A stretch of 64,000 nt of DNA from Bacteroidetes bacterium GWC2_46_850 (lineage in GTDB: Bacteria; Bacteroidota; Bacteroidia; Bacteroidales; Dysgonomonadaceae): contig MENQ01000021.1 of assembly GCA_001768325.1 (NCBI GenBank), forward strand, positions 124,001-188,000, read 5' to 3'. Shown here piece after piece: positions 28,047 through 60,881 of this stretch. The notes under the pieces are model-generated. The model searched no databases, was not told the origin of the DNA, and saw only the letters and a program-made list of their open reading frames with translations. The translations under genes and the position numbers were made by a program. How positions within the stretch are numbered: position 1 is the first letter of the stretch; each line of letters opens with the position of its first letter.

Positions 28047-28129
28047 CATTCCCCAGCGCCGACACTGTCATGTATCCGTTCCATATGGCATACATCCCGG
28101 GTATATACAGTAAACAGTATATTATATCA

Positions 28130-43886: not shown

Positions 43887-43911
43887 AACGATAAATTTAA
43901 TACGTAAAAAG

Positions 43912-45046: not shown

Positions 45047-46147
45047 ATGATAAAACATTATTTTTTTCTTTTTGGATGTATCTCTTTTTTCACCTTACAA
45101 TCCTTTGGCAGCAATGACAATCGGGTGTTTGAACCCGAAGCGATTAAGGAAGTCATGCTCAAAACAGCAGCATGGCAGTTGAAACATCCAAAACATGCGC
45201 AAAACGACTGGACAAACGCCGCTTTTTATGCCGGGATGTTTGCCGCCTGGGAAGCAACAAGGTCACAAACAATTTATAATGCCATGTTGTCCATGGGTGA
45301 AGATTCTACACAATGGCGACCTTACAGGCGCTGGTACCATGCAGATGATATTGCCATCTGCCAGACCTATATCGACCTCTACCGGATAGAAAGGCAACAA
45401 AAAATGATCCAACCTACCCTGGACACACTCGCGATCTTATTGAACAACCCATATCCGTACAAAGGTATTCAGGTCATTAAGTGGTGGTGGTGCGATGCGC
45501 TGTTTATGGGTCCCCCGGTGCTTGCGAAGATGGCGAATGTGACGGATGATGACAAGTATGCAAAAGCGAACGACACCTACTTTAAGGAGTGCTATAACCT
45601 CCTTTATAACAAAGAGGAGAAGCTTTTTGCCCGCGACCTGAATTATGTGATTAAAGGAGATGGAAACGACCGTTGGGAAGCAAATGGAAAACGCATCTTT
45701 TGGTCACGTGGCAATGGGTGGGTCATGGGTGGCCTGGCCCGTATTCTTCAGGAACTCCCGGCCGATTACCCGGAACGCCCATTCTATGAGACACTTTTCA
45801 AAGAGATGGCCGAACGCATCCTATCTCTTCAACAGGAAGATGGTTTGTGGCGTGCAAGTCTGCTCGATCCTGAGTCTTATCCGGGAGGTGAAGTAAGTGG
45901 GTCGGGATTTTTCTGTTATGCTTTTGCATGGGGCATCAACAATGGCCTCCTGGACAGCAAATTATTTAAACCTGCTGTGGATAAATGCTGGATCGCATTG
46001 AATTCCTGTGTCAACGAAGAAGGGCGTGTAGGATGGGTGCAACCGATCGGTGCAGATCCTCGAAAGAACTTCAGTGAAGATAGCTGGGAAGTATATGGCA
46101 CGGGAGCCTTCCTTTTAGCAGGCAGCGAAATGCTTAAATTAAAGTGA
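45047..46147 (+). CDS. GH105/GH88-like unsaturated uronyl hydrolase
   Basis: The protein has 366 residues, with a signal peptide (about 1-20). The (alpha/alpha)6-barrel motifs are NDWTNAAFYAGMFAAWEAT (about 52-70), WYHADDIAICQTYIDLYR (about 96-113), KWWWCDALFMGPP with Asp150 as likely catalytic Asp, and FWSRGNGWVMGGLARIL. This fits GH105-type enzymes of the YteR/YesR kind, which hydrate 4,5-unsaturated uronic acids on lyase products. It begins the enzyme block and overlaps by no more than a few bases with the PL12-like gene. It differs in subgroup from the two pectin GH105 proteins. Confidence 0.87.
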   Translation: MIKHYFFLFGCISFFTLQSFGSNDNRVFEPEAIKEVMLKTAAWQLKHPKHAQNDWTNAAFYAGMFAAWEATRSQTIYNAMLSMGEDSTQWRPYRRWYHADDIAICQTYIDLYRIERQQKMIQPTLDTLAILLNNPYPYKGIQVIKWWWCDALFMGPPVLAKMANVTDDDKYAKANDTYFKECYNLLYNKEEKLFARDLNYVIKGDGNDRWEANGKRIFWSRGNGWVMGGLARILQELPADYPERPFYETLFKEMAERILSLQQEDGLWRASLLDPESYPGGEVSGSGFFCYAFAWGINNGLLDSKLFKPAVDKCWIALNSCVNEEGRVGWVQPIGADPRKNFSEDSWEVYGTGAFLLAGSEMLKLK

Positions 46148-46149
46148 CT

Positions 46150-48120
46150 ATGCACAGACTATATCTGTTGATTTTGTGGCTATTTTTTATCCTGACTGCT
46201 TTTGGACAAGGAGAAGGCAATTTGCAAACCGATAACGGGAAGACTACCAATCGGGGCGTAGCATATTTGCTCGACAAATTAGATGTCGAAACAGCACCGC
46301 TCAGTGAGGTTCAAAAAATTACCGACAGAGAAAATCAGGGAAAAGCCTTGTTGAACTACTTCCGGTCGCGGTATAATGTGCATCACCGGATTAACAGAGA
46401 CGACAGGGTTCGTAGTTTGGGAAATATCGCATCACAATCGGACTTCGAGTTGGCTGACGACGCATTGAAACATATCTTCGTGGGACAACCGGCCTATCCT
46501 CGTTTTTTTTGTGGTGAAGATATTGATTGGGGATCACGCCCCGTTCCCGATAATGAATGGGTTTGGCAGTTAAACAGGATGAATTTCTGGAATGCTATGG
46601 GAAGGACCTACTGGCATACGTCCGACGAAAAATATGCCCGGGCCTGGGGGGAACAGCTGATTGACTGGGTAAGCAAAAACCCCAACGATGAGGATCACCG
46701 GTATGCCTGGCGCTCCATTGAAGCCGGTATACGGGGTAACAGCTGGTGTGAACTGTATCAGCGTTTTATTGATTCTCCTTCATTTACCCCGGAAGTGTTG
46801 ACTGCTTTCCTGACCAGCCTGCACGATCATGCCTCATTCCTGATGACCAAATACACCACCAACAGCAACTGGGCTCTGATGGAAGCAGAGGGACTGGCAG
46901 CCATTGCCATACTCTTTCCTGAATTCAAAGAAGCTCCGTTATGGAGGGAAGAGGCTTTCAGAAGATTTAACATAGAAATAGACAAACAGGTATATTCAGA
47001 CGGGCAACAGAGAGAGCTCGCAATGGGATATCACGTGGGATGCATCAGCTGGTTCCTTAGAAGTTATGAACTGGCCAGAATGAACGAAATGAAGGATGCT
47101 TTTCCGCGAACCTACGTGGAAAAAATAGAAAAAATGTGTGAGGTACCCATGAAGCTGTGCCATCCGGATGGCACCGTGGTACAGTTTGGCGATGCCTGGA
47201 CCGGAAAGCCGGGACAATACAAAAATCAATTTATGGCCTGGTCAAAACTTTTTGACAGAGACGATTTTTTATATATGGCAACCGACGGAACCAAAGGAAA
47301 AGCACCCTATAAAACAGCTTTTGCACTGCCTGAAAGCGGGTTGTACTCGATGAGGAGTGGCTGGGATCCGGACGCCATCTTTCTGGCCTTGAAGTGTGGA
47401 CCCAATGGAGGGGGGCACGCTCAACCCGATAACGGAACCTTTGGCTTGTACGCAGGCGGCAGAATTTTAATGCCCGATGCCGGCAGTTACATTTATAGCG
47501 GCGATCCGGAAGGAAGAGCCTGGTTCAGGCAAACGAAGGTACATCAGACCATTACACTCGATGACCTGAATTCAGCATATGCTCCCAAACTACTTTATTG
47601 GAATACAAATAAAGGCCTGGATGTACTGGTAGTAGAGAACAACAGCTACGACGATCTGACGCATCGGCGTTCCCTGTTGTTTATCGACAAACGTTATTTT
47701 GTGATTGTTGACGAAGTTTACGGTGCAGCAACCGGAGAGGTAGGACTACATTTCCAGCTTGCTCCCGGAGAACCGGCTGTAGACAAGAAAAACTTCTCCG
47801 TTCAGACCAATTTTCCGGAGGGATGGAATGTTTACCTGCAAACTGCCCACAACCAAAACAAAATGCAACTACTGGAAGAAGAAGGATGGGTCTCCCATCA
47901 GTACACCATAAAGGAACCCCGACCTGCCTTTTGTTTCAATATAAATAAAACTGGTGACAATCCTGTTATTCGCTATGTCACTCTATTGGTGCCTTATAAA
48001 GACAGAAAACCTGATATAAAAGTAAGAATTCTCAATGAGTCAGAAAAAGAACCCATTTCAAAGATGAACCTGGAAATAACCGAAAACAGTAGCAAAAAAA
48101 TGATACAGTATAATCTTTAA
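46150..48120 (+). CDS. heparinase III-like polysaccharide lyase (PL12 type)
   Basis: I start at ATG46150 (656 residues; signal peptide ending TAFGQG); a GTG at 46144 would overlap the previous stop. The order is an N-terminal (alpha/alpha) toroid (NEWVWQLNRMNFWNAMGRTYWHTSDEKYARAWGEQ and neighbours) and a C-terminal beta-sandwich. Candidate catalytic residues are Asn240 (NSNWALMEAE), Tyr294 (GYHVG) and His423 (GGGHAQPDNGTF). Positions and context match Asn240, Tyr294 and His424 that I recall for Pedobacter heparinus heparinase III, and the HAQPDNGTF / PDAG / WFRQT / HQTITLDD blocks are shared. It should cut a glucuronate-containing chain by beta-elimination. Heparan sulfate is the known substrate of the family, but no sulfatase accompanies it here. 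Confidence 0.88.
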   Translation: MHRLYLLILWLFFILTAFGQGEGNLQTDNGKTTNRGVAYLLDKLDVETAPLSEVQKITDRENQGKALLNYFRSRYNVHHRINRDDRVRSLGNIASQSDFELADDALKHIFVGQPAYPRFFCGEDIDWGSRPVPDNEWVWQLNRMNFWNAMGRTYWHTSDEKYARAWGEQLIDWVSKNPNDEDHRYAWRSIEAGIRGNSWCELYQRFIDSPSFTPEVLTAFLTSLHDHASFLMTKYTTNSNWALMEAEGLAAIAILFPEFKEAPLWREEAFRRFNIEIDKQVYSDGQQRELAMGYHVGCISWFLRSYELARMNEMKDAFPRTYVEKIEKMCEVPMKLCHPDGTVVQFGDAWTGKPGQYKNQFMAWSKLFDRDDFLYMATDGTKGKAPYKTAFALPESGLYSMRSGWDPDAIFLALKCGPNGGGHAQPDNGTFGLYAGGRILMPDAGSYIYSGDPEGRAWFRQTKVHQTITLDDLNSAYAPKLLYWNTNKGLDVLVVENNSYDDLTHRRSLLFIDKRYFVIVDEVYGAATGEVGLHFQLAPGEPAVDKKNFSVQTNFPEGWNVYLQTAHNQNKMQLLEEEGWVSHQYTIKEPRPAFCFNINKTGDNPVIRYVTLLVPYKDRKPDIKVRILNESEKEPISKMNLEITENSSKKMIQYNL

Positions 48121-48131
48121 AACACCATTGT

Positions 48132-50030
48132 ATGAAATCATCAAAATTTTCAAAGATCTTCTTAACAATCTTTTCTATTTTGTTTGTCTGTCATGGTAGT
48201 GTACAGAAGCTATCTGCGCAGCAAGCTGAAGAGGATCAAATACCCAAACTCGAAAATCCATTTACACAACAATATCTAAAAAAGAATATCCGAAAATCAC
48301 ACCCGAGATTGGTTTTAAATTCAGCCATTGAAAAAGATTTGAAGAAAAAAATTAAATCCGATCCGGTTGTCAGGAATATGTATGCAGCAATTAAGCTAAA
48401 TGCGGAATCTATTTATGATAAACCACTGCTGGAAAGAATTCAGATTGGCAGAAGGCTGCTCAGTGTATCCCGGGAGATGCTCTTCCGGGTAAATATGCTG
48501 GGGATGGTCTACCGCATGGAAAAAGATCCGGCCGTGCTGAAAAGGCTGAATGATGAGTTGGTGGCTGTATGTAATTTCAGAGATTGGAATCCCTCTCATT
48601 ATCTCGACGTGGCGGAGATGTCTATGGCTGTGGCATTGGCACTCGATTGGACAATGGGCGATTTACCTAAAACGACCGAGGAACTGGCGATACAATCTTT
48701 GATTGAAAAAGGAATTAAACCCAGCTGGCCCGAAAACGGGAAAAATCCAGGCTGGGCTTACGGCAACAACAACTGGAACCAGGTTTGTAACGGAGGTATG
48801 ATAGCGGCATCCATCGCTATTGCTGAGAGAGATCCTGAACTGGCAGCCAAAACCATATCAAGGGCATTGGACGGAATTCCTCATTCCCTGGTTGAATACA
48901 TGCCCGACGGTGTTTATCCGGAAGGATCTACCTACTGGGGATATGGTACCGGTTTTTCGGTCATTACCATTGCCATGTTGGAAAGTGCTTTTGGCAAAGA
49001 TTTCGGACACAGTGATTATCCCGGATTCAAGGAAAGTGCCTTGTTCCGGGTGCTGTCCAACGCTCCTTCTGGCTGGTATTATAATTTTGCCGACTGTGGC
49101 GATAAAAGAGGAGTGAATGGTGATGCAACACTCGCCTGGTTTGCCAGTAAGACAGGGAACAAGGCTTTTTTCGAGAAAGAAAGATTTCTGATGCCTGTTG
49201 ACCAGATGAGCAGACTGGGCCGTCTAGACGGATCAGCCCTGGTATGGATTTCACAATATAAAGAAAAAGAAGACATACAGGTTCCTTCTTCCTGGAAAGG
49301 AGAAGGAGCAAATCCGGTCGTAATTTTCACTGGCGAAAGCAATGATTCGCATCAGTATTATTTTGGCGGAAAAGGTGGCCGGGGCACTGTAAACCACGGC
49401 AATATGGATGGAGGATCATTTATTTTCGAGCTGAACGGCGTCCGCTGGGTTGTTGATCCGGGAAATCAGGATTACAACGACCTGGAACAGACTGGATTTG
49501 ATCTATGGGGCAAATGTCAGGAATGTGAACGATGGACTTTGCTCACCAAAAACAACTTTGGTCACAGCACACTCACCGTGAATAATGAACTTCACGTAGT
49601 AGACGGATTGGCCACCATAAAAGACTTCAAAAACGGAAATAATCCCGAAGCGACCTTCGAGCTGACACCGGCGTTTCAGGGACTGCTCAAGAGTGCCCAA
49701 AGAAAATTCAGGAAAGACTCACCTGTTTCTCTTGTCGTGGAAGATATGATTGACGTGTCGGACTCCACAAAGCTGATCACCTGGCAGTTGATGACTACTG
49801 CCGATGTGGAACTGACGAAAGATGGAGCCATTCTCAGACAGGACAACAAAAGTCTGAAAATCGAAAATCTTTCACACCCCGGTTTATCCATGTCGGTGGT
49901 ATCGCTCGATCCGGCACCTTTAAAGCTTGACAGACAAATAGCAGGTTTAAAACGGATTGAATTGAGAATACCTGCCTGGACCATAGAAGATAATAAAACG
50001 AATATCCTGATAAGACTTGCAGAAAATTAA
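48132..50030 (+). CDS. heparinase II/III-fold polysaccharide lyase
   Basis: The protein has 632 residues, with a signal peptide ending LSAQQ. The N-terminal helical domain starts with HPRLVLN (about residue 57) and contains IGRRLLSVSREMLFR, DWNPSHYLDVAEMSMAVALALDW and NNNWNQVCNGGM (Asn212-216). The PEGSTYWGYGTGF segment supplies the likely catalytic Tyr. The C-terminal beta-sandwich has NHGNMDGGSFIFELNGVRW, with His422 as the likely partner. The layout is that of heparinase II and alginate/glucuronan lyase relatives; the exact PL family cannot be named by eye. It is a clear paralog of the protein at 58918-60813. It lies 11 bases after the PL12-like gene. Confidence 0.83.
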   Translation: MKSSKFSKIFLTIFSILFVCHGSVQKLSAQQAEEDQIPKLENPFTQQYLKKNIRKSHPRLVLNSAIEKDLKKKIKSDPVVRNMYAAIKLNAESIYDKPLLERIQIGRRLLSVSREMLFRVNMLGMVYRMEKDPAVLKRLNDELVAVCNFRDWNPSHYLDVAEMSMAVALALDWTMGDLPKTTEELAIQSLIEKGIKPSWPENGKNPGWAYGNNNWNQVCNGGMIAASIAIAERDPELAAKTISRALDGIPHSLVEYMPDGVYPEGSTYWGYGTGFSVITIAMLESAFGKDFGHSDYPGFKESALFRVLSNAPSGWYYNFADCGDKRGVNGDATLAWFASKTGNKAFFEKERFLMPVDQMSRLGRLDGSALVWISQYKEKEDIQVPSSWKGEGANPVVIFTGESNDSHQYYFGGKGGRGTVNHGNMDGGSFIFELNGVRWVVDPGNQDYNDLEQTGFDLWGKCQECERWTLLTKNNFGHSTLTVNNELHVVDGLATIKDFKNGNNPEATFELTPAFQGLLKSAQRKFRKDSPVSLVVEDMIDVSDSTKLITWQLMTTADVELTKDGAILRQDNKSLKIENLSHPGLSMSVVSLDPAPLKLDRQIAGLKRIELRIPAWTIEDNKTNILIRLAEN

Positions 50031-50063
50031 ACAAGAAAATATGAACAATCAAAAATAAAAAAA

Positions 50064-51263
50064 ATGAAAAAATTACTATCTCTGTGCATTTTAATTATTT
50101 CCATCCTGTTTACAACGCAATCTTGCACAAACGCCCAACAAAAAAACCAGGACAGCGCTCAATTCATGGAAGAGAATATTTCTTTTGCTGCAGAACAGTA
50201 TGGGTTGATGCTCAATAAAGTGGAAGACTCGGCAAGCATCGTCAATCCCAAATCATTTATTGAGGGGAAAATGAAATATATCCGTCCCCAGGAATGGACA
50301 TCGGGCTTCTTCCCGGGAAATCTCTGGTATATCTACGAATTGACGGGAGATGAGAAATGGAAAACAATGGCTACAAAATATACCGAAGCGCTGGATACCA
50401 TTCAATACTATACAGGCAACCATGATGTGGGATTTATGATCTACTGTAGCTACGGAAACGGACTTCGTTTGGCTGGAACTGAAGCTTACAAGGAAGTTAT
50501 TGTGAATGCTGCAAAATCACTCTCAACCCGCTATATCCCGGAAGCAGGCATTATTCAGTCGTGGAATGCCAACAAATCGAAAGACTGGGAATGTCCGGTG
50601 ATTATTGATAACATGATGAACCTGGAACTGCTGTTCGAAGCGACAAAGCTTTCAGGTGACTCCTCTTTTTATCACATCGCTGTTACACATGCCGACAATA
50701 CCATCAGAAACCATTACCGTCCCGATTACAGTACCTGGCACGTGATCGATTACAGCAAAAGTGACGGTAGCGTCAGACACAGAAATACCCATCAGGGGTA
50801 TTCCGATGATAGTGCCTGGGCCAGAGGACAATCTTGGGGCATTTATGGATTCATTCTTTGCTATAGGGAAACAAAAGACCAGAAATATCTGGATCAGGCA
50901 GAAAAGGCCCTGAATTTCATAGCCAGTCATCCAAATTATCCCGAAGACGGAGTTCCGTACTGGGATTTTGATGCACCCGATATCCCGAACACTTACCGCG
51001 ATGCTTCCGCCGGTGCTATCCTGGCCTCTGCCTTGTATGAGCTGTCGACCTATTCCGATAAAATGGATTATAAGGCATGGGCTGACACAATTGTCGCTTC
51101 GCTTGCAAGCCCGGTATACCGTGCTCCACTGGGCGAGAACGGCAATTTCCTGCTGATGCATTCCGTCGGCAGTCTGCCCCACAACTCTGAGGTTGATGTA
51201 CCCCTGAACTACGCAGACTATTATTTCCTGGAAGCATTGAAACGCAAGAGAGATCTGGAATAA
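50064..51263 (+). CDS. GH88 unsaturated glucuronyl hydrolase, lipoprotein
   Basis: The protein has 399 residues, with a lipoprotein signal (TTQSC). The GH88 motifs are unmistakable: WTSGFFPGNLWYIYELTGD, HDVGFMIYCSYGNGLR with Asp121, VIIDNMMNLELLFEA with Asp182, HQGYSDDSAWARGQSWGIYGF, and VPYWDFDAP...DASAGAI. Asp121 and Asp182 are 61 residues apart, the same spacing as the catalytic Asp88 and Asp149 I recall for Bacillus UGL. The enzyme hydrates the unsaturated glucuronic acid that lyases leave at the non-reducing end. It is the downstream partner of the lyases in this block and points to glucuronate, rather than galacturonate, in the substrate. Confidence 0.93.
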   Translation: MKKLLSLCILIISILFTTQSCTNAQQKNQDSAQFMEENISFAAEQYGLMLNKVEDSASIVNPKSFIEGKMKYIRPQEWTSGFFPGNLWYIYELTGDEKWKTMATKYTEALDTIQYYTGNHDVGFMIYCSYGNGLRLAGTEAYKEVIVNAAKSLSTRYIPEAGIIQSWNANKSKDWECPVIIDNMMNLELLFEATKLSGDSSFYHIAVTHADNTIRNHYRPDYSTWHVIDYSKSDGSVRHRNTHQGYSDDSAWARGQSWGIYGFILCYRETKDQKYLDQAEKALNFIASHPNYPEDGVPYWDFDAPDIPNTYRDASAGAILASALYELSTYSDKMDYKAWADTIVASLASPVYRAPLGENGNFLLMHSVGSLPHNSEVDVPLNYADYYFLEALKRKRDLE

Positions 51264-51280
51264 ACGGAGAGAAACCTGCA

Positions 51281-52678
51281 ATGAAAACCCGGTTACCACT
51301 TGTTTTACTCTTATTGTGGAGTGTTGCAACTGTCGCCCACAGCCAGTCCAATTTGAATAACACAAAATTTGACGGATACAAAGGCATCTGGTTTGAACTC
51401 AATCAAAAATATGAACTGGGCGATAAATACTCGGGAGCTCTATCTACCTACACTGCCAAACACATGCCTTTGGCAGTGTATTCCGCCGAAGCCAACAAGA
51501 CCTTTTTCGTATATGGTGGCACCACTGGCGAAACAGCGCGTTATCTGTTATGCATGATCGGATATTTTGACCATAAAACCGGCATGGTAGCGAAGCCCAC
51601 TGTGGTATATGACAAGAAAGGAGTGAACGATCCACATGATAATCCTTCCTTGATGATAGACGATGAGGGGTATATCTGGGTATTCATCAGCGGGCGCGGA
51701 CAGAAGCGCCCCGGATTTAAATACAGGAGTAAACTTCCGTACAATATCGATGGCTTCGACGAAATACGTACAGAAGAGATGACCTATCCACAGCCCTGGA
51801 ACACAGGTCTGGGTTATTTCCACTTTTTCACAAAATATAAGGGAAACCGATTACTTTACTTCGAGACCAGTACCGATGGCATTCACTGGTCGGAAGATCA
51901 GCCACTTGCTGCCATACCACAAAAAGAAGGAGAACAGGCCGGTCATTACCAGGTTAGCGGACTTTATCATAACCGGAAACTGGGTACTTTCTTCAATCGT
52001 CATCCCAACGGAGATGTAGATAAAAGAACAGATCTCTACTATATAGAAACCTCCGATCTGGGTAAGACGTGGAACGACGTGCAAAAAAGAAACCTCTCGA
52101 TCCCGCTGTTGCAAAAAGAGAACACAGCATTGGTAATCGATTATCAGTCAAAGCACAAGAATGTGTATGTAAAAGATATGGATTTTGATAAAAAAGGAAA
52201 TCCAATCTGTCTCTATATCAGAAGTAACGGACATGAACCTGGACCCGCAAGTGCTCCCTATGAATGGTGCATCACACACTGGAATGGGAAGGAATGGCGT
52301 ACGAATGTAATCACTGAGTCTGATCACAACTACGACATGGGTAGTTTATATGTTGGGAACAATGAATGGAGGATTGCAGCACCCACCGCCACTGGCCCGC
52401 AAAAGTGGGGCGTTGGTGGAGAAGTGGAGATATGGTCTTCCACTGATAAAGGTATTCACTGGACAAAGAGGAGAACAGTCACTTCAAACAGTCGCTTCAA
52501 TCACGCATATATACGCCGACCTTTACATTTCAAAGCTCCTTTCTGTTTCTTCTGGTCTGATGGCGATGCCCATCATTTCAGTAAGTCACAACTTTACTTT
52601 GGTGATTTCAAAGGAAATGTATGGCAACTCCCGTATGAGATGAGAAACGATTTTGAAAAACCAAAACAGATAAATTAG
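51281..52678 (+). CDS. BNR-repeat seven-bladed propeller protein, possible polysaccharide lyase
   Basis: The protein has 465 residues, with a signal peptide at about 1-21. It fits the BNR_4-type beta-propeller family: FDGYKGIWFELNQ, HMPLAVYSAEANKTFFVYGGT, DPHDNPSLMIDDEGYIWVFISGRG (His119), and HYQVSGLYHNRKLGTFFNRHP. This fold occurs in lyase families PL24, PL25, PL27 and PL42, including ulvan lyases and rhamnose-glucuronate lyases. His119 and the Tyr/His-rich segment near residue 225 are in places compatible with a catalytic site. Its position inside a block of lyases and unsaturated-uronyl hydrolases supports a lyase role. The activity is inferred; a sialidase-like or binding role cannot be excluded. 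Confidence 0.72.
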   Translation: MKTRLPLVLLLLWSVATVAHSQSNLNNTKFDGYKGIWFELNQKYELGDKYSGALSTYTAKHMPLAVYSAEANKTFFVYGGTTGETARYLLCMIGYFDHKTGMVAKPTVVYDKKGVNDPHDNPSLMIDDEGYIWVFISGRGQKRPGFKYRSKLPYNIDGFDEIRTEEMTYPQPWNTGLGYFHFFTKYKGNRLLYFETSTDGIHWSEDQPLAAIPQKEGEQAGHYQVSGLYHNRKLGTFFNRHPNGDVDKRTDLYYIETSDLGKTWNDVQKRNLSIPLLQKENTALVIDYQSKHKNVYVKDMDFDKKGNPICLYIRSNGHEPGPASAPYEWCITHWNGKEWRTNVITESDHNYDMGSLYVGNNEWRIAAPTATGPQKWGVGGEVEIWSSTDKGIHWTKRRTVTSNSRFNHAYIRRPLHFKAPFCFFWSDGDAHHFSKSQLYFGDFKGNVWQLPYEMRNDFEKPKQIN

Positions 52679-52680
52679 TC

Positions 52681-54696
52681 ATGCGAAAAAGTTTATTATC
52701 ATTCATTTTCTTACTCATACTGATCGTTTCAGGTAAAGTATATGCTCAGGGTTGGCACGATATGAAAACAGTGGAAGATGTTTGCATTGCATATCCCGAA
52801 GAGATGAAAAAAATGCTGGGAGAGTTTGATCTCAACCGCCCCGGAATGGAACAGGTAAAAGAGGCCTTCGCATCGAAAAATATTTCAGCAGCTTGTACCC
52901 TCCTGCTGGAATATTATCAAAACAGCATTCATGCCCAGCATTTAAGGGAAAAAAATATGCCCGCTCACTCCGAAAAGACAGAGGCCGAAGCCGATTCCAT
53001 CCTCAATAATATATTTGTTATTCAGAATGTGAGAGGTGTCGTCCCCTGGGGAGAAGACGGCCATCGCGACTGGCACTACAGAGGCCCGAATAACGACCGG
53101 GAATGGGCGTGGCTTTCCAATCGGCACAGCCAGTTAAATCACGTCTTTGATGTCTATCTCGAGACCGGGAATCCCAAATATGCCATCTATGTGGACGAGT
53201 TCCTGCGTGATTTTATCATCAAAAGTATGCCTTACCCCGGCGTAAAGGGAAGTGACGCAGTATGGAGAGGTCTTGAAGTGAGTTTTCGCTCAAAGGTCTG
53301 GTCCCGGATTTTCTATGGTTTGCTGCAATCTGAATATCTGCAACCTTCAACCCGTCTGCTGATGCTAAGCAGCTTACCCGATCATGCACACTACAATCGT
53401 CATTTTCACAGCGGCAACAACTGGCTTACCATGGAAATATCGGCATTGGCAACCGTCGCTACAAATTTTCCGGAGTACAATGATGCGGAGGAGTGGTTAA
53501 ATTATTCCATAGACACCATGGCGGAAAGTATGAAAAATCAGGTCTATCCCGATGGCGCACAAACAGAACTGACCTCGCATTATCACAACGTCTCTCTGAG
53601 CAATTTTGACCTGTTCAAGGAGATATGTGACCGGGCAGGCAAACCACTGCCTCCCTTTTTTAACAGGACCCTTGAAGCGATGTATGCCTATATCGCTCAT
53701 GCCGTACGACCCGATGGCAACCGGATCCTGAATAATGACGGCGACCTGGGCAGCGATCGGTCCCTGATCCTGAAAGGAGCGCACACCTATGATAAACCCG
53801 ACTGGGAATATATTGTGACAAATGGGAAATCAGGTATAAATCCCACTGAAGACCCCTCATACCTCTTTCCGTGGGCTGGCCAGTTGATTTCACGGAGTGG
53901 ATTTGATGCAGATGCACATTGGTCGTTTTTCGACATCGGTCCCTGGGGTAGTGGCCATCAGCACAACGACAAGCTTAATATCTCCGTTTCCGCCTATGGA
54001 CGCGATCTGCTTGTGGATGCAGGCCGGTTTGCTTATACGGGAGAAGTAGCTGATAAATTCAGGTCCTACGCAAGGGGAAGCCAGGGGCACAACGTGCTTC
54101 TTTTCGACCATAAAGGACAGGGAGCAGGTCCGCTGCTTGCTGAACAACCTCTTTCCGAAGAACAGTGGGAAATGACAGATGCGTATGACTATGCCAAAGG
54201 ATCGTTTGACATTTTTCCGGGACTCGAAGGCAAACTGAAACATACCCGCCACCTTTACTATTCACGTGGCGACTTTTGGATTGTGGTCGATGAAATTGAA
54301 ACCGACAGGCCACGAAAGATAGATGCACTATGGCACTGGCACCCAACCTGCAAGGTGGCTGTCAACGGAAATAAAGTGTATACCGAAAATGACAGGGGTA
54401 ACCTGCAGATTGTCCCTGTCGGTAACCGGAAATGGGAGATTAATCTTATCGAAGGGCAGGAGGAACCTGAAATTCAGGGATGGTACAGCAAAGAATACAA
54501 TGAGTTTGAACCCAATGTGACTTCCCTGTATACAACACAAATCAAATCGGACAGTAAGCTTGTATGGCTTTTATTTCCTTCCGAAAAGGTTGAAACGGAT
54601 GTCCGGGCTGAAATCGTTTCTGAATCCCCAAAAGGAATAATAGTAAGTGTGACGGATCAAAAGGGAAATAAGTGGAATGTGACTGTTCCGCTGTAA
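52681..54696 (+). CDS. heparinase II/III-fold polysaccharide lyase
   Basis: The protein has 671 residues, with a signal peptide ending KVYAQ. The helical domain includes NNDREWAWLSNRHSQLNHVF, VWRGLEVSFRSKVW and SGNNWLTMEISAL (Asn246-247), followed by TSHYHNVSLSNF with the likely catalytic Tyr. The beta-sandwich has SGHQHNDKLNISV (His426, His428) and the typical VDAGRFAYTGE segment. It is closest in style to the PL12-like protein of this block but clearly distinct. It starts two bases after the BNR gene, so translation is probably coupled. Confidence 0.83.
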   Translation: MRKSLLSFIFLLILIVSGKVYAQGWHDMKTVEDVCIAYPEEMKKMLGEFDLNRPGMEQVKEAFASKNISAACTLLLEYYQNSIHAQHLREKNMPAHSEKTEAEADSILNNIFVIQNVRGVVPWGEDGHRDWHYRGPNNDREWAWLSNRHSQLNHVFDVYLETGNPKYAIYVDEFLRDFIIKSMPYPGVKGSDAVWRGLEVSFRSKVWSRIFYGLLQSEYLQPSTRLLMLSSLPDHAHYNRHFHSGNNWLTMEISALATVATNFPEYNDAEEWLNYSIDTMAESMKNQVYPDGAQTELTSHYHNVSLSNFDLFKEICDRAGKPLPPFFNRTLEAMYAYIAHAVRPDGNRILNNDGDLGSDRSLILKGAHTYDKPDWEYIVTNGKSGINPTEDPSYLFPWAGQLISRSGFDADAHWSFFDIGPWGSGHQHNDKLNISVSAYGRDLLVDAGRFAYTGEVADKFRSYARGSQGHNVLLFDHKGQGAGPLLAEQPLSEEQWEMTDAYDYAKGSFDIFPGLEGKLKHTRHLYYSRGDFWIVVDEIETDRPRKIDALWHWHPTCKVAVNGNKVYTENDRGNLQIVPVGNRKWEINLIEGQEEPEIQGWYSKEYNEFEPNVTSLYTTQIKSDSKLVWLLFPSEKVETDVRAEIVSESPKGIIVSVTDQKGNKWNVTVPL

Positions 54697-54744
54697 GAGT
54701 GCTTCTCTTTTATTAACAAACCCTGTATAGAAAAAACTTTAAAT

Positions 54745-56682
54745 ATGAATAAGATGAAAAAAGAACTGTTCCTGGTACTTGTCATGGTTATTTCAACCCA
54801 TGCTTTTTCTTTCGAAAAAAGAGATATCCTTCAGCAAGAATCCCAAAAAATCGGATTGTCAGACGTCCTTGTAAAAGATTTCTCGGAGATTGGATTTCCT
54901 GATTACGCCAATCGAAAGTTTTGGAACAATCTTCCCGCTACCATTAGACAGCAATATATTGAAGCAGCAGAAAAATATCTGGATTACGACTGGCCTGCCG
55001 TAAAAGCAACAGATTATCTGGAGATTATCCGATCTGGCGACCGCAGACAAGAGGCATACGCTGCACCCAGCGGTGCCCTTCAGGCGCTGGTAATGGGTGA
55101 ACTGGCTGAAGGAAAAGGAAGATTCACCGACCAGATTGTGAACGGTGTCTGGTATTACAGTGAACAAACATGGTGGGGCTGGTCGGCTCACCTGACAGCC
55201 CAAAAAGCAAAACACGGCCTGCCCGATGTGAACGAACCGGTGATTGACCTGGGGGTCGGCGAAATTGCCAATGTACTCTCCTGGACATGGTTTCTTTTCA
55301 AAGATGAGTTCGATAAAATACATCCCTTAATTTCACAACGACTGAAACAGGAGATCATGCACAAGGCAGTAATCCCGTATTATGAGCGGGAAGACTTCTG
55401 GTGGATGGGATTTGGTTCACGGTCGGTAAACAACTGGAATCCATGGACTAATCACAATATGCTCACAGCCATATTGATTCTGGAGGACGATCAGCAAAAG
55501 AAAATCAAAAACGTTGAAAAGGTGATCCGTTCGCTTGATGTCTTTGTCAACGGCTATCCCGACGACGGTGGGTGTGATGAAGGTCCCTCCTACTGGGGAA
55601 GAGCGGGAGCCTCGTTGTATCAATGTCTCGACTTGTTGAAAAGAGCGACCGGTGGTAAGTTTGATGTATATGACAATCAACTGATTAAGAATATGGGCAG
55701 CTATATTTACAAAGCATATATTACATATCCCTATTTCATCAATTTTGCCGATGCGGATGCAACAACCGGAGGAAGACCTTCCATCATTTACCACTATGGT
55801 AAAGACACCAAAGATCCGGTGATGCAGAAATTTGGTGCCTTCCTTGCACACAAACAGGGATGGGGAGAGGAAAAACCTGGAGGTAAACCCGACGAACAGA
55901 TTATGCAGCTTCTCTATCTGGATGAAATTAAAAATGCAAAAGCTGAGGAAGCATTGATCAGTGATTTTTGGTTACCTCAAACCGAAGTTGCGGGTGGAAG
56001 AGACAAAGCAGGCAGCTCCGATGGATTCTTTTTTGCAGCAAAAGGAGGGCATAATGCCGAAAGCCACAACCATAACGACCTGGGCTCGTGTGTGCTATAT
56101 ATCAATGGCAAACCCTGTCTGATTGACTTGGGCAGAGAAACTTATACGGCAAAAACATTCAGCAGTGAACGTTATCAGATATGGACCATGCAATCACAGT
56201 TCCATAATCTGCCAAAAATAAATGGTTACGACCAACTTGCCGGAAGAAATTACAAAGCGACCAATGGTCAATTCAGCGCCGACAAAAAACAAGTGAATTT
56301 TTCAACCGATATTGCAGCTGCTTATCCGAAAGAGGCCGGCATAAACAAATGGGTACGTTCCTACCAGCTCGACAGGGGCAAACGGTTTGTAGTCAAAGAT
56401 GAATACGTATTCAATAAAATGCCGGAGAACCCCACAACACTGAATTTCGTCACCTATTGCAAGGTAACGGAAAGCAAACCGGGCACGTTAATACTACAAG
56501 GTGAAGATTATAACCTGGAGCTGACTTACAATTCCAAAACAACAAAACCGACCATTGAATTTATAGAAGTTACAGACGACGGACTGAAACGTTACTGGCC
56601 CAACGGCGTGACAAGGATTGTCTTCAACCTGAAAAATCCCGGACTGAAAGGAGAAAACCGGATTACCATCACAAATAAATAA
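54745..56682 (+). CDS. heparinase II/III-fold polysaccharide lyase
   Basis: The protein has 645 residues, with a signal peptide of about 22 residues (THAFSF). The helical toroid holds SVNNWNPWTNHNMLTA and DDGGCDEGPSYWGRAGASLYQ, giving the expected Asn and Tyr. The beta-sandwich has AESHNHNDLGSCVLYINGKP (His441, His443) and IDLGRETYTAKTFSSERY. This is a third subgroup, unlike the 48132/58918 pair or the PL12-like protein. PL15- or PL21-like exo-lyases are possible relatives, but the family cannot be fixed by eye. A 48-base gap precedes it without obvious promoter elements. Confidence 0.82.
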   Translation: MNKMKKELFLVLVMVISTHAFSFEKRDILQQESQKIGLSDVLVKDFSEIGFPDYANRKFWNNLPATIRQQYIEAAEKYLDYDWPAVKATDYLEIIRSGDRRQEAYAAPSGALQALVMGELAEGKGRFTDQIVNGVWYYSEQTWWGWSAHLTAQKAKHGLPDVNEPVIDLGVGEIANVLSWTWFLFKDEFDKIHPLISQRLKQEIMHKAVIPYYEREDFWWMGFGSRSVNNWNPWTNHNMLTAILILEDDQQKKIKNVEKVIRSLDVFVNGYPDDGGCDEGPSYWGRAGASLYQCLDLLKRATGGKFDVYDNQLIKNMGSYIYKAYITYPYFINFADADATTGGRPSIIYHYGKDTKDPVMQKFGAFLAHKQGWGEEKPGGKPDEQIMQLLYLDEIKNAKAEEALISDFWLPQTEVAGGRDKAGSSDGFFFAAKGGHNAESHNHNDLGSCVLYINGKPCLIDLGRETYTAKTFSSERYQIWTMQSQFHNLPKINGYDQLAGRNYKATNGQFSADKKQVNFSTDIAAAYPKEAGINKWVRSYQLDRGKRFVVKDEYVFNKMPENPTTLNFVTYCKVTESKPGTLILQGEDYNLELTYNSKTTKPTIEFIEVTDDGLKRYWPNGVTRIVFNLKNPGLKGENRITITNK

Positions 56683-56695
56683 TAACAGGGTGACA

Positions 56696-58921
56696 ATGAA
56701 AAAAATATGTATAAATCTGGTTTTTTGGGCCTCCCTTTTGACCTTTCATATCAGTCAGGCTACTGCTTCCGATTTTGATGTGATCAAAAAAAGGGTCATT
56801 GCAAACCTTCTGGAACAGGATGTCCCTGACAAGGCAGTTGAGACGATGGTGAACACCATCAATCCCGACGGGACATGGCCTCATATTAACTATGAAGATG
56901 TGTCGAATGAAGGCTTTCAACACAGTGAACATGCAGCCAATATGGTTACGATGGCCAGAGCATACAAAAAAAAGGGATCTGCTTTTTATAAAAGCAAAAA
57001 AGTAAAGCAGGCCATCACACTGGCATTCAAGCATTGGGTAGAAAACGATTACATCTGCAAAAACTGGTGGCACAATGAAGTGGGTACACCCACCAATCTC
57101 GTGAACCTGATGCTGCTGATTGGTGATGAATTACCAAAGGATCTGGTGGAAAAGGGACAACCGATCATCGGACGTGCGCACGTCGATGGACCGGGAGCAC
57201 GACCAGGTGGAGACAGGATCAAGATCGCTGGTATCCAGGCAAAGAACATGTTGTTCACGGGTGACTTTCAGACCTTTAATGAAGTGATCAGGATAATTGA
57301 GAATGAGATAAAATCAGTAGAATGGATCGGCAGAGAATATGGGTATACCTTCAAACAGCATGAGGGCGGTTTCTCCAATCGCTCTGCCGGAGGTCGTGGA
57401 ATACAATACGACAACAGTTTTCATCACAGAACCGACGGTGTAAACAATACGCTTTCCTATGGGATGGGTTATGCAGAAGCATTCATAGAATGGGCAGTCT
57501 ATACTGCCGGTACCAGCTACGCTTTTTCCGGGGAAAAGATTGAAAAACTGGTGGATTATTATCTGGATGGAATCTGCAAGACAGCTGTCTTTGGAAAATA
57601 TCCCGATCCAGGCAAGAAAAACAGAAGCATAAGCCGACGGGGAGATCTGCGTCCCTATAGCGCGAAGAGTGCCGAAAACCTGCTCAAAACAACGAACTAC
57701 AGAAGAGCGGAACTACAGGATATTGCAGATATCCGGAACAAGGGAATCAAACCAACGCTGTCACATGCCACTTTTTTCTGGAACACGGAACATTTTACTT
57801 TTCAACGTCCCGATTGGTTCACATCGGTGAGAATGTATTCCACCCGTACGCACAATATGGAGGAACCTTACAACAGCGAAGGACTGTTAAACCACCACAG
57901 AGGCGACGGAGCCAACCATATTTCACGCACTGGCGATGAGTATTATGATATCTTTCCTGTTTTTGATTATCAGATGATACCGGGTGCCACCATCATGCAA
58001 AAAGAATCTTTGCCAGGTCCTGGTCAGATCCAGAAACTGGGGCAAACCCATTTTGTGGGTGCTGTAACCGATGGAACCTATGGTGCCGTTTCTTTCGACT
58101 TTAAAAGTCCGCACGATCCATTGATTGCCCGTAAATCCTGGTTCTTTTTCGACGATACGTATGTGGCTTTGGGTACTGGAATTTCATGCACGCAACAGTT
58201 GCCGGTGGTTACAACCCTCAATCAGTGTCTCCTCCGTGGCGATGTGATTATGTCGACTGAGGGACAACAATCGGTGCTTTCCAGAGGTGAAAAAAATTAT
58301 GACAACGTCGATTGGGTATTTCATGATGGAATTGGATATCTGTTTCCACAAAAGACATCTGTGGGACTCCAAAACGATCGTGTAACCGGTTCATGGTGGA
58401 ATATCAGCAAACAAACCAGCACCGACAAATCGTCCGTCACCAAAGATATTTTTAAGCTCTGGATCGACCATGGAAAGCGTCCGTCAGACAAGCTCTATGC
58501 GTATATTGTAGTACCGGCAACCACACCGGAAAAAATGAGACAACTTCGTTCAGAAAGCCACATTGATATTCTCATGAACAGTCCGGAAATACAAGCCGTC
58601 AGAAACAAAGATCTGGACATGACTCAGGCTGTTTTTTACAGAGGAGGCAAAATCAGCATGGATGAGAACCTACAGATAAAAAGCGATAATCAGGGAATCG
58701 TCATGATAAAAATGAAAGAAGGTCGGCTTGCTGAAATATCAGTCTCCGACCCCAGTAGGGAACTGGAGCGCTTCAACCTTTCTGTTACGACAAGAATCGA
58801 TAAGAAGGGAAGCAACTTTTGGACAGTCTGGAATGAAGACGAGCAGGCAACGCACATCTCCATCGCATTACCGCAGGATAATTATGCGGGGGATAGTGTC
58901 ACCATCCAACTTAATGAATGA
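56696..58921 (+). CDS. PL8-type polysaccharide lyase (hyaluronate/chondroitin/xanthan lyase family)
   Basis: I start at ATG56696 (741 residues), where the signal peptide begins; a GTG at 56690 would add two residues. The N-terminal (alpha/alpha) toroid carries NWWHNEVGTPTNLV (Asn123), DNSFHHRTDGVN (His243-His244) and LSYGMGYAEAF (Tyr255). STRTHNMEEPYNSEG (Arg384) and the super-beta-sandwich (FDYQMIPGATI, SWFFFDDTYVALGTGI) follow. The Asn/His/Tyr/Arg set is that of PL8 lyases. Known members cleave hyaluronan, chondroitin or xanthan. The sequence around His243 differs from classical chondroitin lyases, so the substrate remains open. Its stop overlaps the next start by four bases (ATGA). Confidence 0.85.
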   Translation: MKKICINLVFWASLLTFHISQATASDFDVIKKRVIANLLEQDVPDKAVETMVNTINPDGTWPHINYEDVSNEGFQHSEHAANMVTMARAYKKKGSAFYKSKKVKQAITLAFKHWVENDYICKNWWHNEVGTPTNLVNLMLLIGDELPKDLVEKGQPIIGRAHVDGPGARPGGDRIKIAGIQAKNMLFTGDFQTFNEVIRIIENEIKSVEWIGREYGYTFKQHEGGFSNRSAGGRGIQYDNSFHHRTDGVNNTLSYGMGYAEAFIEWAVYTAGTSYAFSGEKIEKLVDYYLDGICKTAVFGKYPDPGKKNRSISRRGDLRPYSAKSAENLLKTTNYRRAELQDIADIRNKGIKPTLSHATFFWNTEHFTFQRPDWFTSVRMYSTRTHNMEEPYNSEGLLNHHRGDGANHISRTGDEYYDIFPVFDYQMIPGATIMQKESLPGPGQIQKLGQTHFVGAVTDGTYGAVSFDFKSPHDPLIARKSWFFFDDTYVALGTGISCTQQLPVVTTLNQCLLRGDVIMSTEGQQSVLSRGEKNYDNVDWVFHDGIGYLFPQKTSVGLQNDRVTGSWWNISKQTSTDKSSVTKDIFKLWIDHGKRPSDKLYAYIVVPATTPEKMRQLRSESHIDILMNSPEIQAVRNKDLDMTQAVFYRGGKISMDENLQIKSDNQGIVMIKMKEGRLAEISVSDPSRELERFNLSVTTRIDKKGSNFWTVWNEDEQATHISIALPQDNYAGDSVTIQLNE

Positions 58922-60813
58922 ATGTCATGAAAATTAACTCTATTATTCTTTTGTGTCTGTTCATCTTATTATTTGGGGGGAGTACGTGCGATAAAAATGA
59001 ACCGGAAACCGGGCAGACCGATGTGGAAAACAACAAAACCGGACATCCGCGCATCATGCTCCTGGAGGGTGAAGAAGCGCAGATAAAGGAATTAATTGCC
59101 GGTGACGCCACGTGGAAGAAGATGCACGATGCTATCATCGGGGAATGCAATGTAATCATCACCAAACCCGAATTGGAAAGGGTCATGACGGGAAGGAGGC
59201 TGCTCGGCACCTCCAGAGAATTGTTGCGGAGGGTTTTCTTTCTTTCATACGGATACCGAATGACCGCAAATAAGCGTTACCTGGAAAAGGCAGAGAAGGA
59301 AATGCTGGCTGTCTCCCGGTTTACCGACTGGAATCCATCTCACTTCCTGGATGTAGCAGAGATGACTATGGGCGTAGCCATCGGCTATGACTGGCTTTTT
59401 AATGGACTCCCTGATAGTACCAGAGAAACGATCAAACAGGCGATTGTACAAAAAGGGTTGAACCCCTCCAAAGAGAGCAAATACAACTGGTGGCTCAAAA
59501 CCGAAAACAACTGGAACCAGGTCTGCAATGCCGGAATGACTTTTGGTGCAATGGCTGTGCAGGAAGATTATCCATTATTGGCCAATGAAATTATTGAACG
59601 GGCCTTCACCTCAATTCCTCTTTCCATGGAAGTATATAAACCGGGAGGAGTTTATCCGGAGGGATATGGATATTGGGGTTATGGCACCACATTTAACATT
59701 CTATTTCTCTGCGCTGTGGAAAAGGCTTTAGGCAGTGACAGAGGGCTTTCCCGTTCTCCCGGGTTCTTGGAAACGGGCGACTTCCTAAAACACATGATTA
59801 CGCCGGGCGGTAAAAATTTTAACTGGTCCGACAATGGGCTTGGCGCAAACCTGAGTCCGGCAATGTTCTGGATTGCACAAAAAAGTAATAAGCCCTCAGT
59901 CTTGTGGTCTGAGAAAGAGTTTCTGAAAACAGATAATTTTTCAAAATTCAAGGGGATCAGAGAGTTGCCTGCCATCATGATCTGGGGTAGGAATATTCCG
60001 CTGGACAAGATCACCGAACCCAAAGAAAAATTCTGGTTCGGCCAGGGAACCAATCCGGTTGCGATGATGAGAACATCCTGGACAGATCCCAATGCCATCT
60101 ATCTCGGATTTAAAGCCGGCTCACCTTCGGTGAATCACGGACATATGGATGTCGGCTCCTTTGTAATGGAAGCAAATGGTGTGCGTTGGGCATCCGATCC
60201 GGGCATGCAAAACTACGAATCGCTGGAGTCGAAAGGAATGAACATCTTTGGAAGAACGCAGGACGCACAACGATGGACAATTTATCGGATGAACAATCAT
60301 TCACACAATGTGATCACAATAAATGACCAGCATCAGCAGGTGAAAGGGTATGGAAAGATTGATGCATATTCCGATGCGGAAGCATTTTCTTATGTTGTCT
60401 CAGACATATCCTCAGTTTATGATGGTCAGATGAAGCAGGTTGTAAGAGGTGTAGCCATAAAGGATGGAAAATATGTAGTAATACGCGATGAGGTGGAAAC
60501 CCTGGGGAAAGAAACAAAATTGAAATGGGCCATGTTCACTTTCGCAGATGTTGAACTGGGTGACAATTCAGCGGTACTGACACAAGATAATAAAAAACTC
60601 TACATCCGGGTCAATGGTTCGGAAAATATCGTGATGAAAACATGGAGTACGACACCAGAAAACGATTATGATGCCACCAACCCGGGTACGGTGATGGTGG
60701 GATTTGAATGTATGCTACCGGCCGATACACAAGCATCCTTCGAAGTATTGCTGATTCCGGAGGAATCACGCAACAGCGCCACCTGTACCCATAAAAACCT
60801 GAAAGATTGGTGA
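58918..60813 (+). CDS. heparinase II/III-fold polysaccharide lyase, lipoprotein
   Basis: The protein has 631 residues, with a lipobox ending GGSTC. It is a paralog of the protein at 48132-50030: the HPRIMLL start, MTGRRLLGTSRELLRRVFFLSYGYR, DWNPSHFLDVAEMTMGVAIGYDW, NNWNQVCNAGM, PEGYGYWGYGTTF and VNHGHMDVGSFVMEANGVRW with His407. The two have nearly the same length and domain order but different anchoring: this one is a lipoprotein, the other has an ordinary signal peptide. The ATG overlaps the PL8 stop by four bases, indicating coupled translation; ATG58927 is an alternative start. It ends the enzyme block. Confidence 0.84.
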   Translation: MNVMKINSIILLCLFILLFGGSTCDKNEPETGQTDVENNKTGHPRIMLLEGEEAQIKELIAGDATWKKMHDAIIGECNVIITKPELERVMTGRRLLGTSRELLRRVFFLSYGYRMTANKRYLEKAEKEMLAVSRFTDWNPSHFLDVAEMTMGVAIGYDWLFNGLPDSTRETIKQAIVQKGLNPSKESKYNWWLKTENNWNQVCNAGMTFGAMAVQEDYPLLANEIIERAFTSIPLSMEVYKPGGVYPEGYGYWGYGTTFNILFLCAVEKALGSDRGLSRSPGFLETGDFLKHMITPGGKNFNWSDNGLGANLSPAMFWIAQKSNKPSVLWSEKEFLKTDNFSKFKGIRELPAIMIWGRNIPLDKITEPKEKFWFGQGTNPVAMMRTSWTDPNAIYLGFKAGSPSVNHGHMDVGSFVMEANGVRWASDPGMQNYESLESKGMNIFGRTQDAQRWTIYRMNNHSHNVITINDQHQQVKGYGKIDAYSDAEAFSYVVSDISSVYDGQMKQVVRGVAIKDGKYVVIRDEVETLGKETKLKWAMFTFADVELGDNSAVLTQDNKKLYIRVNGSENIVMKTWSTTPENDYDATNPGTVMVGFECMLPADTQASFEVLLIPEESRNSATCTHKNLKDW

Positions 60814-60832: not shown

Positions 60833-60867
60833 CATCTTTGTCTCAATAGCATAATCCCGGCTATTGA
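60833..60867 (+). promoter_or_regulatory. weak promoter-like element and stem-loop before the second HTCS
   Basis: CATCTTTG at 60833-60840 differs from the TAnnTTTG -7 consensus at one base. Just downstream, TCAATAGC (60843-60850) and GCTATTGA (60860-60867) form a perfect 8-bp inverted repeat with a 9-base loop, at the place where transcription would start. No T-run follows, so it is not a classical terminator. Both calls are tentative. Confidence 0.3.
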
Positions 60868-60881
60868 TTCTTTCAGATCAG

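Follow-up and report, generated by a model that had tools for sequence, protein, structure and literature searches.

A lyase-dominated, sulfatase-free gene block in a probable Proteiniphilum genome, possibly directed at glycosaminoglycan-type glucuronate chains

The gene block

The DNA studied, G000:C21:124001-188000, is a 64,000-nt window from a genome of 3.75 Mb in 32 contigs (hereafter, the window), and the subject of this report is a block of nine consecutive enzyme genes, most of them for putative polysaccharide lyases, at positions 45047-60813 of that window. All nine open reading frames (ORFs) were located on the plus strand, and all frames are open. The spacing between the genes, calculated from their coordinates, is -4, 11, 33, 17, 2, 48, 7, and -4 bases, and such tight spacing suggests that the block forms a single transcription unit. 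In the 5' to 3' direction, the order is GH105-like, PL12a, PL35b, GH88, BNR propeller, PL12b, PL33, PL8, and PL35a.

A previous sequence-only reading of the window had described this block as nine consecutive enzyme genes, with five heparinase II/III-fold proteins, one PL8-type lyase, one BNR propeller, and GH105-like and GH88 hydrolases, and the Pfam results agreed. Heparinase II/III domains were found in five of the nine proteins (genes starting at 46144, 48132, 52681, 54745, and 58918), while the other four gave a PL8 match, a BNR_4 match, a strong match of GH88/105 type, and a weaker one to GH88. Sequence searches against the PDB (E threshold 0.001) sharpened the assignments to PL12, PL35, PL12-like, PL33, PL35, PL8, GH105-like, and GH88. 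Five of the nine also matched NCBIfam models, every match being under the model cut-off.

Lyases and unsaturated-uronyl hydrolases were the only catabolic enzymes recognized in the operon by Pfam; the same scan recognized no hydrolase that would remove side chains or additional backbone sugars, and neither GH109 nor GH154 in the block. The nearest named relatives of the propeller gene were found in Proteiniphilum metagenome-assembled genomes (L024, L025, L026, and L086; 81-97% identity), and the host genus is therefore most likely Proteiniphilum, of the Dysgonomonadaceae.

Lyases and unsaturated-uronyl hydrolases

The catalytic Asn/Tyr/His triad was found in all five heparinase-fold lyases. 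It was placed by alignment to a solved chain for PL33 and by residue spacing for PL12a, PL12b, PL35a, and PL35b, with HepIII N240/Y294/H424, BtPL33-HA N238/Y291/H444, and PL35 N192/Y246/H401 (plus metal ligands H403/D405) as reference triads. The solved structures are 8R6Z, 8R70-8R73, and 8R75 for PL33 (PMC11848413; here and below, papers are cited from excerpts), and 8KHV (GAGase II) and 8KHW (GAGase VII) for PL35 (PMC12088678).

PL12a (46144-48120, plus strand) is a heparinase III-type lyase matching PDB 4mmi at 1e-132 and the NCBIfam HepC model with 547 bits, under the cut-off of 700. Its triad, N242/Y296/H425, was conserved in 7/7 aligned rows, two of which represent the same L002 gene. 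The divergent PL12-type lyase PL12b (52681-54696, plus strand; Pfam Hepar_II_III N and C) is only remotely related to HepIII, with 5.5e-28 to 4mmi and 146 NCBIfam bits against the cut-off of 700. Its triad, N247/Y301/H426, aligns with that of PL12a; N247 and H426 were present in 18/18 rows and Y301 in 16/18, the rows without it belonging to L064 and L065, which are 35% identical.

PL33 (54745-56682, plus strand) matched PDB 8r73 at 5.8e-149 over residues 23-641 and 8r6z at 2e-142. Residues N230, Y283, and H441 align with N238, Y291, and H444 of 8r6z, and Arg286 aligns with its His294; the subfamily marker position 301 of the published work could not be placed. PL35a (58918-60813, plus strand) is closest to GAGase II (8khv, 2e-207). 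Its triad, N198/Y252/H407, has the reference spacing, is followed by H409 and D411, and was conserved in 7/7 rows. PL35b (48132-50030, plus strand; 8khv, 1.5e-111), also of glycosaminoglycan (GAG) lyase type, carries N214/Y268/H422, conserved in 9/9 rows.

At E 0.001, the PDB searches with the five heparinase-fold proteins returned no PL21 chain, and the PL21-type label given to them earlier was consequently dropped. The five proteins are distributed over three families, so they do not fall into one known heparan sulfate polysaccharide utilization locus (PUL); placement of most of them in such a PUL is what the sequence-only reading had named as refuting it.

The PL8 gene (56690-58921, plus strand) encodes a chondroitinase AC-type lyase with an altered catalytic-loop motif, considered below. 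Pfam Lyase_8 (4e-75), Lyase_8_N, and Lyase_8_C each scored above cut-off, and the best solved relative was 1hm2 (1e-92). Chondroitinase AC scored 315 bits and xanthan lyase 139, which places the protein nearer to the former; the xanthan lyase entries 2e22 and 1x1h were among its PDB matches.

Of the two predicted unsaturated-uronyl hydrolases, the GH105-like protein (45047-46147, plus strand; Pfam GH88 1.5e-78) has as its nearest solved relative 4ce7 (4e-104), an unsaturated 3S-rhamnoglycuronyl hydrolase. The GH88 unsaturated glucuronyl hydrolase (50064-51263, plus strand; Pfam GH88 1.2e-9) matched 3wiw at 4e-107.

Sulfatases and neighboring genes

The absence of sulfatases from the window, claimed previously, was confirmed: all 14 PF00884 matches in the genome lie elsewhere. 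Nine of the 14 are on contig C21, six of them at C21:193974-227263, that is, 5.9 to 39 kb past the window end, the first at a distance of 9.1 kb from the block. Directly downstream, C21:184864 to about 233560 is taken up by a chondroitin-type and a heparan-type PUL, both with sulfatases. The first begins with a hybrid two-component sensor (HTCS; 60864-64000, plus strand; Pfam) that continues beyond the window to L001:3934, followed by SusCD, a sulfatase, two chondroitinase ABC-type PL8s, GH88, a second sulfatase, and a DUF4962/heparinase protein. The second contains SusCD, HTCS, GH88, PL12, four sulfatase matches, and a DUF4962/heparinase protein.

Upstream of the block, all on the plus strand, Pfam identified an HTCS (28070-32401; Reg_prop, HisKA, HATPase_c, Response_reg, and HTH_18), which is a candidate regulator, and a LacI-type regulator with a periplasmic-binding-protein domain (32619-33689; LacI and Peripla_BP_4). 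These are followed by SusC-like TonB-dependent transporter 1 (34218-37424; Plug and CarbopepD_reg_2), SusD-like protein 1 (37431-39233; SusD_RagB 4e-44), SusC-like transporter 2 (39266-42118; Plug 2e-6), relatives of which adjoin SusD2 in loci L105 and L107, and SusD-like protein 2 (42129-43886; SusD_RagB 1.5e-42). The last gene before the block (43873-44928; Pfam BT_3987-like N domain and DUF5627) encodes a candidate surface glycan-binding lipoprotein with a lipobox-like start, presumably placed at the cell surface.

Measured from the first SusC gene to the last gene of the second downstream PUL, the whole island is about 75 kb long; counting the upstream HTCS brings it to 80 kb. Within this roughly 80-kb GAG island, the block looks like a sulfatase-free arm for unsulfated glucuronate.

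Positions 1-27951 of the window hold a pectin-type cluster with a pectinesterase, two GH43, two GH28, a GH105-type protein, a DUF4450 protein, and a SusCD pair on the minus strand. The Pfam scan of this region covered 10 of the 13 main ORFs before 22493, leaving out 102-1292, 3651-4697, and 8926-10095. The GH28 genes (10096-11418 and 11436-13127, minus strand) bear on the former statement that no endo-acting glycoside hydrolase exists elsewhere in the window. As GH28 comprises both endo- and exo-polygalacturonases, this statement is unproven rather than refuted.

The block in relatives of the family

Eight stretches from seven genomes of the family were compared, using ORFs of at least 120 aa, BLASTP at 1e-6, and five sulfatase baits. 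Seven of the eight (L104-L108, L110, and L111) matched no sulfatase bait, and L109 matched one. This is in line with the core of the sequence-only reading, namely a lyase-dominated, sulfatase-free, glucuronate-directed block that likely handles several linkage types, with hyaluronan as an example of its target. GH78 and GH106 baits gave no match in any of the eight stretches.

The unit of genome G046 (L107 and L108) retains SusC1-SusD1-SusC2-SusD2-lipoprotein, followed by PL12a-PL35b-GH88-propeller-PL12b-PL33-PL8-PL35a. It shows no GH105 match, and both propeller and PL12b are interrupted, the latter by a stop. Genome G051 (L105) retains both SusCD pairs, the lipoprotein, PL35b, GH88, PL33, and PL8, so that the core PL33-PL8-PL35b-GH88 recurs there after matching SusCD pairs and lipoprotein. 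No propeller or PL12 match was found in that stretch; in the G051 genome as a whole, PL12b was unmatched and the propeller match covered 70 residues only.

Downstream of PL35a, the HTCS and sulfatase baits gave no match in 3.8 kb of L106 or 10.6 kb of L108. Within these limited flanks, the lack of an HTCS supports position 60813 as the end of the unit, and the neighborhood downstream of the block is not conserved in these two loci.

Among 101 family genomes searched at E 1e-3, with remote paralogues included, the propeller was matched in 13, PL33 and PL35a in 36 each, and PL12b in 25. The propeller frame is interrupted in L108:577-2939 and L111:3366-4936, where either decay or assembly error is possible. 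In G041 (L104:9627-10592), an IS110-type transposase separates PL12b and PL33, and no propeller match occurs there. At L109:7591-13547, three tandem PL33-like genes follow a SusCD pair, with GH105-like and sulfatase-like genes beyond.

The BNR_4 propeller and its relatives

The least expected part of the operon is the BNR_4 beta-propeller protein (51281-52678, plus strand; Pfam BNR_4 8e-18), a candidate uronate lyase of the PL24/PL25/PL42 fold. It had no PDB sequence match at E 0.001 and matched the NCBIfam alpha-L-rhamnosidase BT3686 model only weakly (28.9 bits, cut-off 700). An AlphaFold model built from 66 aligned sequences reached a pLDDT of 94.2. When this model was compared with the PDB by Foldseek, ranks 1-17 all belonged to the PL25/PL24/PL42 (former GH145) group, including FoRham1, PL24 ulvan lyases, the Alteromonas lyase 6jq9, and the putative neuraminidase 4irt. 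Rank 1 had an E value of 5.8e-19 and rank 17 one of 8.9e-12, sialidases appeared from 8.6e-8 onward, and the TM score to PL25 ulvan lyase 5uam was 0.70. By Foldseek rank, the propeller thus has the fold of this group, whose propellers are seven-bladed; at 12-17% identity to the 17 top matches, with no PDB sequence match and a sub-threshold BT3686 score, sequence membership in PL24, PL25, or PL42 was not supported.

Marks of the group are two His about 20 residues apart, an Arg with a neutralizing role, and a Tyr. The functional residues of FoRham1 are His85, His105, Tyr150, Arg166, and Tyr202 (PMC8377490). In the propeller, H98, H119, Y169, R190, and Y223 follow the same order with similar spacing, a tentative correspondence by order only; H98 was present in 64/66 rows and the other four in 66/66. 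Many further residues are invariant across the 66 sequences. The protein is a candidate for a new lyase family. A relationship to the P29 ulvan dehydratase was considered and rejected, as no matching pattern was seen by eye, working from the residue numbers excerpted from PMC8511951.

For the analysis of neighbor genes, the best 80 of 131 propeller relatives were kept, representing Bacteroidota, Verrucomicrobiota, and Hydrogenedentota. A locus was termed lyase-linked when it contained an orthologue of PL12b, PL33, PL8, or PL35 at set thresholds. This applied to 19 of the 80 kept loci, and to 15 of the 53 with at least 15 kb of sequence. Many contigs were short, among them those of L024 and L038, which count as unlinked, and the neighbor counts are therefore lower bounds. 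Hosts of lyase-linked propellers include Dysgonomonadaceae, Prolixibacteraceae, Cyclobacteriaceae, Lewinellaceae, and Chitinophagaceae. At the thresholds used, 53 of the 80 kept loci had neither lyase nor rhamnosidase and 8 had a rhamnosidase only, the neighbors having been partly scanned by Pfam.

The propeller tree was built from 66 rows and omitted fragments, for example L026, L050, and L086. L064, with a 35% PL12b match only, was labeled lyase-linked in the tree, and the count of 19 omits both L064 and L065. The 18 lyase-linked rows were clustered without forming one group, with nine changes in the tree (at least seven by starred branches); shuffles gave 15.9 changes on average, and none of 500 was as low as nine. 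The association between propeller and lyases was accordingly gained or lost several times, and the scattered propeller loci speak against a role bound to any single PUL.

A sulfatase-GH78 fusion adjoins the propeller in 9 of the 80 kept loci, with L040 showing the sulfatase half only. It was found in L030 (11477-15010, where Pfam detected both domains), L031, L032, L035, L038, L043, L066, and L087. The Formosa ulvan PUL contains a fusion of this kind, P36 (PMC8511951). Stand-alone GH78 genes adjoin the propeller in four further loci (L054, L056, L057, and L059). These neighbor genes count as evidence that the propeller acts on rhamnose linked to glucuronate.

Some further observations were made on these loci. 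A 65% identical sulfatase-GH78 fusion is present on the unannotated Persicobacter plasmid CP012863.1, and a search for the propeller on plasmids gave no match at 1e-5. A second, canonical BNR_4 protein occurs in operon relatives (L030:4444-5853, L031:2484-3875, L035, L041, L043, and L066); Pfam scored the L030 and L031 copies at about 1e-88, it is a candidate of PL42/GH145 type, and it has no counterpart in the block. HepC906 of Maribellus (L027:3801-6518) was tried as a PL40 ulvan lyase and set aside, the spacing test having given no clear answer.

Proposed function and alternative explanations

With a probability of about one half, the block would serve to degrade alternating glucuronate chains that are unsulfated or nearly so, that is, GAG-type polymers such as hyaluronan, chondroitin, or heparosan. 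Published PL33_1, PL35, PL8, and PL12 enzymes act on hyaluronan, chondroitin, heparosan, or heparan sulfate. The PL33_1 enzymes tested were active on hyaluronan or heparosan (PMC11848413), and sulfation limits the action of BT4410, a PL33 enzyme (PMC6994673). PL35 GAGases accept hyaluronan, chondroitin sulfate, and heparan sulfate, GAGase II being hindered by 4-O-sulfation (PMC12088678), and BcPL35 acts on chondroitin once a sulfatase has worked (PMC12269599). It is because the published substrates are of GAG type and sulfation hinders BT4410 and GAGase II that the block is taken as an unsulfated arm. The nearest solved structures of PL12a, PL33, and PL35a are those of proven GAG lyases.

The scheme proposed here builds on the observed gene content, families, triads, propeller fold, and neighboring PULs; its substrates, secretion sites, co-regulation, and propeller activity are presumptive. 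The lipoprotein and the two SusCD pairs would bind the chains and import them. The lyases, each for another glucuronate linkage, would release unsaturated disaccharides by beta-elimination, with PL8, PL33, and PL35 cutting N-acetylhexosamine (HexNAc)-beta-1,4-glucuronate (GlcA) and PL12 cutting HexNAc-alpha-1,4-GlcA. GH88 and the GH105-like enzyme would then strip the unsaturated uronate, freeing the second sugar. The propeller may be a further lyase, probably removing or cutting an alpha-1,4-linked sugar on glucuronate, which in its characterized structural relatives is rhamnose. The adjoining sulfatase PULs would treat sulfated chondroitin and heparan sulfate and could supply desulfated chains to the block.

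Several points weigh against this assignment. GAG specificity is not fixed by sequence, and clustering of PL8 and GH88 fails to separate hyaluronan degraders from non-degraders (PMC12877422). The nearest solved relatives of both the propeller and the GH105-like protein act on rhamnose-glucuronate, which is missing from GAGs, and in relatives outside the family the fusion occurs in 6 of the 19 lyase-linked loci, which are also six of the nine fusion loci. In PL35b (motif NHGN), Asn424 replaces the metal-ligand His403 of GAGase II in 9/9 rows, a histidine which GAGase II needs but which some PL35 enzymes may do without. In the canonical PL8 motif, the catalytic His is followed nine residues later by a Tyr (H233/Y242 in 1RWA; PMC12088678). 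This His-x8-Tyr motif is missing from the PL8 of the block, making its catalytic activity uncertain. A loop of SFHHRxDxVNNTLSYG type stands in its place, shared with 8 of 12 relatives (13 aligned rows), and the canonical spacing of nine was present in the other four, the second PL8 genes of L029, L030, L034, and L035. The PL8 with the altered loop is possibly a new PL8 subgroup.

A rhamnose-glucuronate polymer, either ulvan-like or a bacterial or algal one with Rha-alpha-1,4-GlcA, for which heparinase-fold lyases would have been recruited, is kept as a serious minority possibility mainly by the neighbor genes of the propeller. The P36-like fusion in lyase-linked loci (PMC8511951), accompanied by GH106 in L031, fits such a target, as do the propeller model, nearest to PL25/PL24 ulvan lyases and PL42 Rha-GlcA lyases, the GH105 relationship to 4ce7, and a rhamnose isomerase encoded by the host. 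Ulvan degradation has also been proposed for a marine PUL that combines PL33 with two PL40 and sulfatases (PMC8072126). However, neither rhamnosidase nor sulfatase was recognized in the operon, the GH78 and GH106 baits were unmatched in the family stretches, and all 13 GH78 matches of the genome lie on contigs other than C21. The kinship of PL12a, PL33, and PL35a to proven GAG lyases also disagrees with it, and the tested marine PL33, from Maribacter forsetii, was inactive on the panel used (PMC11848413). A bolder reading is rather doubtful: the propeller would found a new PL family for Rha-alpha-1,4-GlcA and, with altered PL8, PL12b, and PL33, would make up an enzyme set, assembled more than once, for polysaccharides of a class not yet described, with glucuronate alternating with both hexosamine and (sulfated) rhamnose.

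The sequence-only reading had stated that sulfatases just outside the window in the same regulon would tell against it. Sulfatases do begin 5.9 kb past the window, which weakens that reading, but both adjoining PULs have their own SusCD and HTCS, and a regulon shared with the block therefore remains an assumption. An ordinary sulfated-GAG system, in which the three adjoining PULs form one regulon and the downstream sulfatases serve the lyases of the block, is unlikely on these grounds. The six nearby sulfatase matches would suit it, and BT4410 of B. thetaiotaomicron, a PL33 unlinked to the chondroitin sulfate/dermatan sulfate/hyaluronan PUL, is regulated together with it (PMC6994673); on the other side, a sulfated-GAG PUL would hold a sulfatase inside, and the DNA after PL35a in L106 and L108 matched neither sulfatase nor HTCS baits. 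The gellan- or xanthan-type bacterial exopolysaccharide suggested previously, complex and branched, is very unlikely as the target. One PL33_2 enzyme cleaves gellan (PMC11848413), PL8 includes xanthan lyase, and the lyases span several families. Nevertheless, no beta-glucosidase, mannosidase, or rhamnosidase was recognized in the block by Pfam, the PL8 scores favor chondroitinase AC, and the solved PL33 relatives are Bacteroides hyaluronan enzymes (PMC11848413). Lyases and uronyl hydrolases would suffice for disaccharide repeats of a sugar and glucuronate and would presumably come to a halt on gellan, xanthan, or branched polymers, which need further hydrolases; as no other catabolic enzyme was recognized in the operon, alternating disaccharide polymers fit better. 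That the operon is partly redundant or decaying, with overlapping duplicate lyases retained by chance, is highly improbable: the broken propeller frames in L108 and L111, the stop in one PL12b, and the altered PL8 motif are set against nine open frames, five retained triads, and the invariant propeller residues.

With the propeller and six lyases from four known families in one operon, a single regulon would be able to open most kinds of 4-linked glucuronate, and the operon would be a test case for why bacteria retain so many lyases in a PUL. Its strongly conserved residues and its recurrent association with these lyases make the propeller well suited for the description of a new lyase family, and its substrate would tell whether enzymes are common to GAG- and ulvan-type degradation. 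How movable the catalytic His is in a classic lyase family could be probed with the altered PL8 motif.

Comparison with known systems

A published PUL of equal make-up was not found in the collection of papers searched, none of which mentioned five of PL33/PL35/PL12/PL8/GH88/GH105 together. The B. thetaiotaomicron chondroitin sulfate/dermatan sulfate/hyaluronan PUL with the unlinked BT4410 (PMC6994673, PMC12877422) shares SusCD, PL8, GH88, a PL33 hyaluronidase, and HTCS with the operon, and likewise has several lyases supplying one GH88. It differs in its internal sulfatases, single SusCD pair, and PL29, and the excerpts name no PL35, PL12, GH105, or BNR_4 for it; in the window, by contrast, PL33 lies inside the operon and the sulfatases outside. 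B. caccae PUL25 (PMC12269599) is similar in that PL35 and GH88 act on unsulfated chondroitin after a sulfatase encoded elsewhere. That system has one PL35, GH109, and a GH154-type dehydratase, whereas the operon has six or seven lyases. In the Roseihalotalea indica GAG-PUL (PMC13027841), PL8 and PL35 also adjoin SusCD, no sulfatase being named in the excerpts, with PL38 and CE19 in place of PL33, PL12, GH88, GH105, and the propeller.

On the ulvan side, the PL25/PL24 ulvan lyases and PL42 FoRham1 (PMC8377490) share the fold of the propeller, which also has a His pair 20-21 residues apart followed by Tyr, Arg, and Tyr in the order of FoRham1, but are distant from it in sequence, as given above. 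The Formosa agariphila ulvan PUL (PMC8511951) shares an ulvan-type GH105 and, through the operon relatives, the P36-like fusion; the operon of the window differs from it in having no sulfatase and no other recognized enzyme of the ulvan PUL. The operon is a variant of a known PUL type, probably glucuronate-directed and more likely aimed at a GAG-type polymer than at a complex, branched one.

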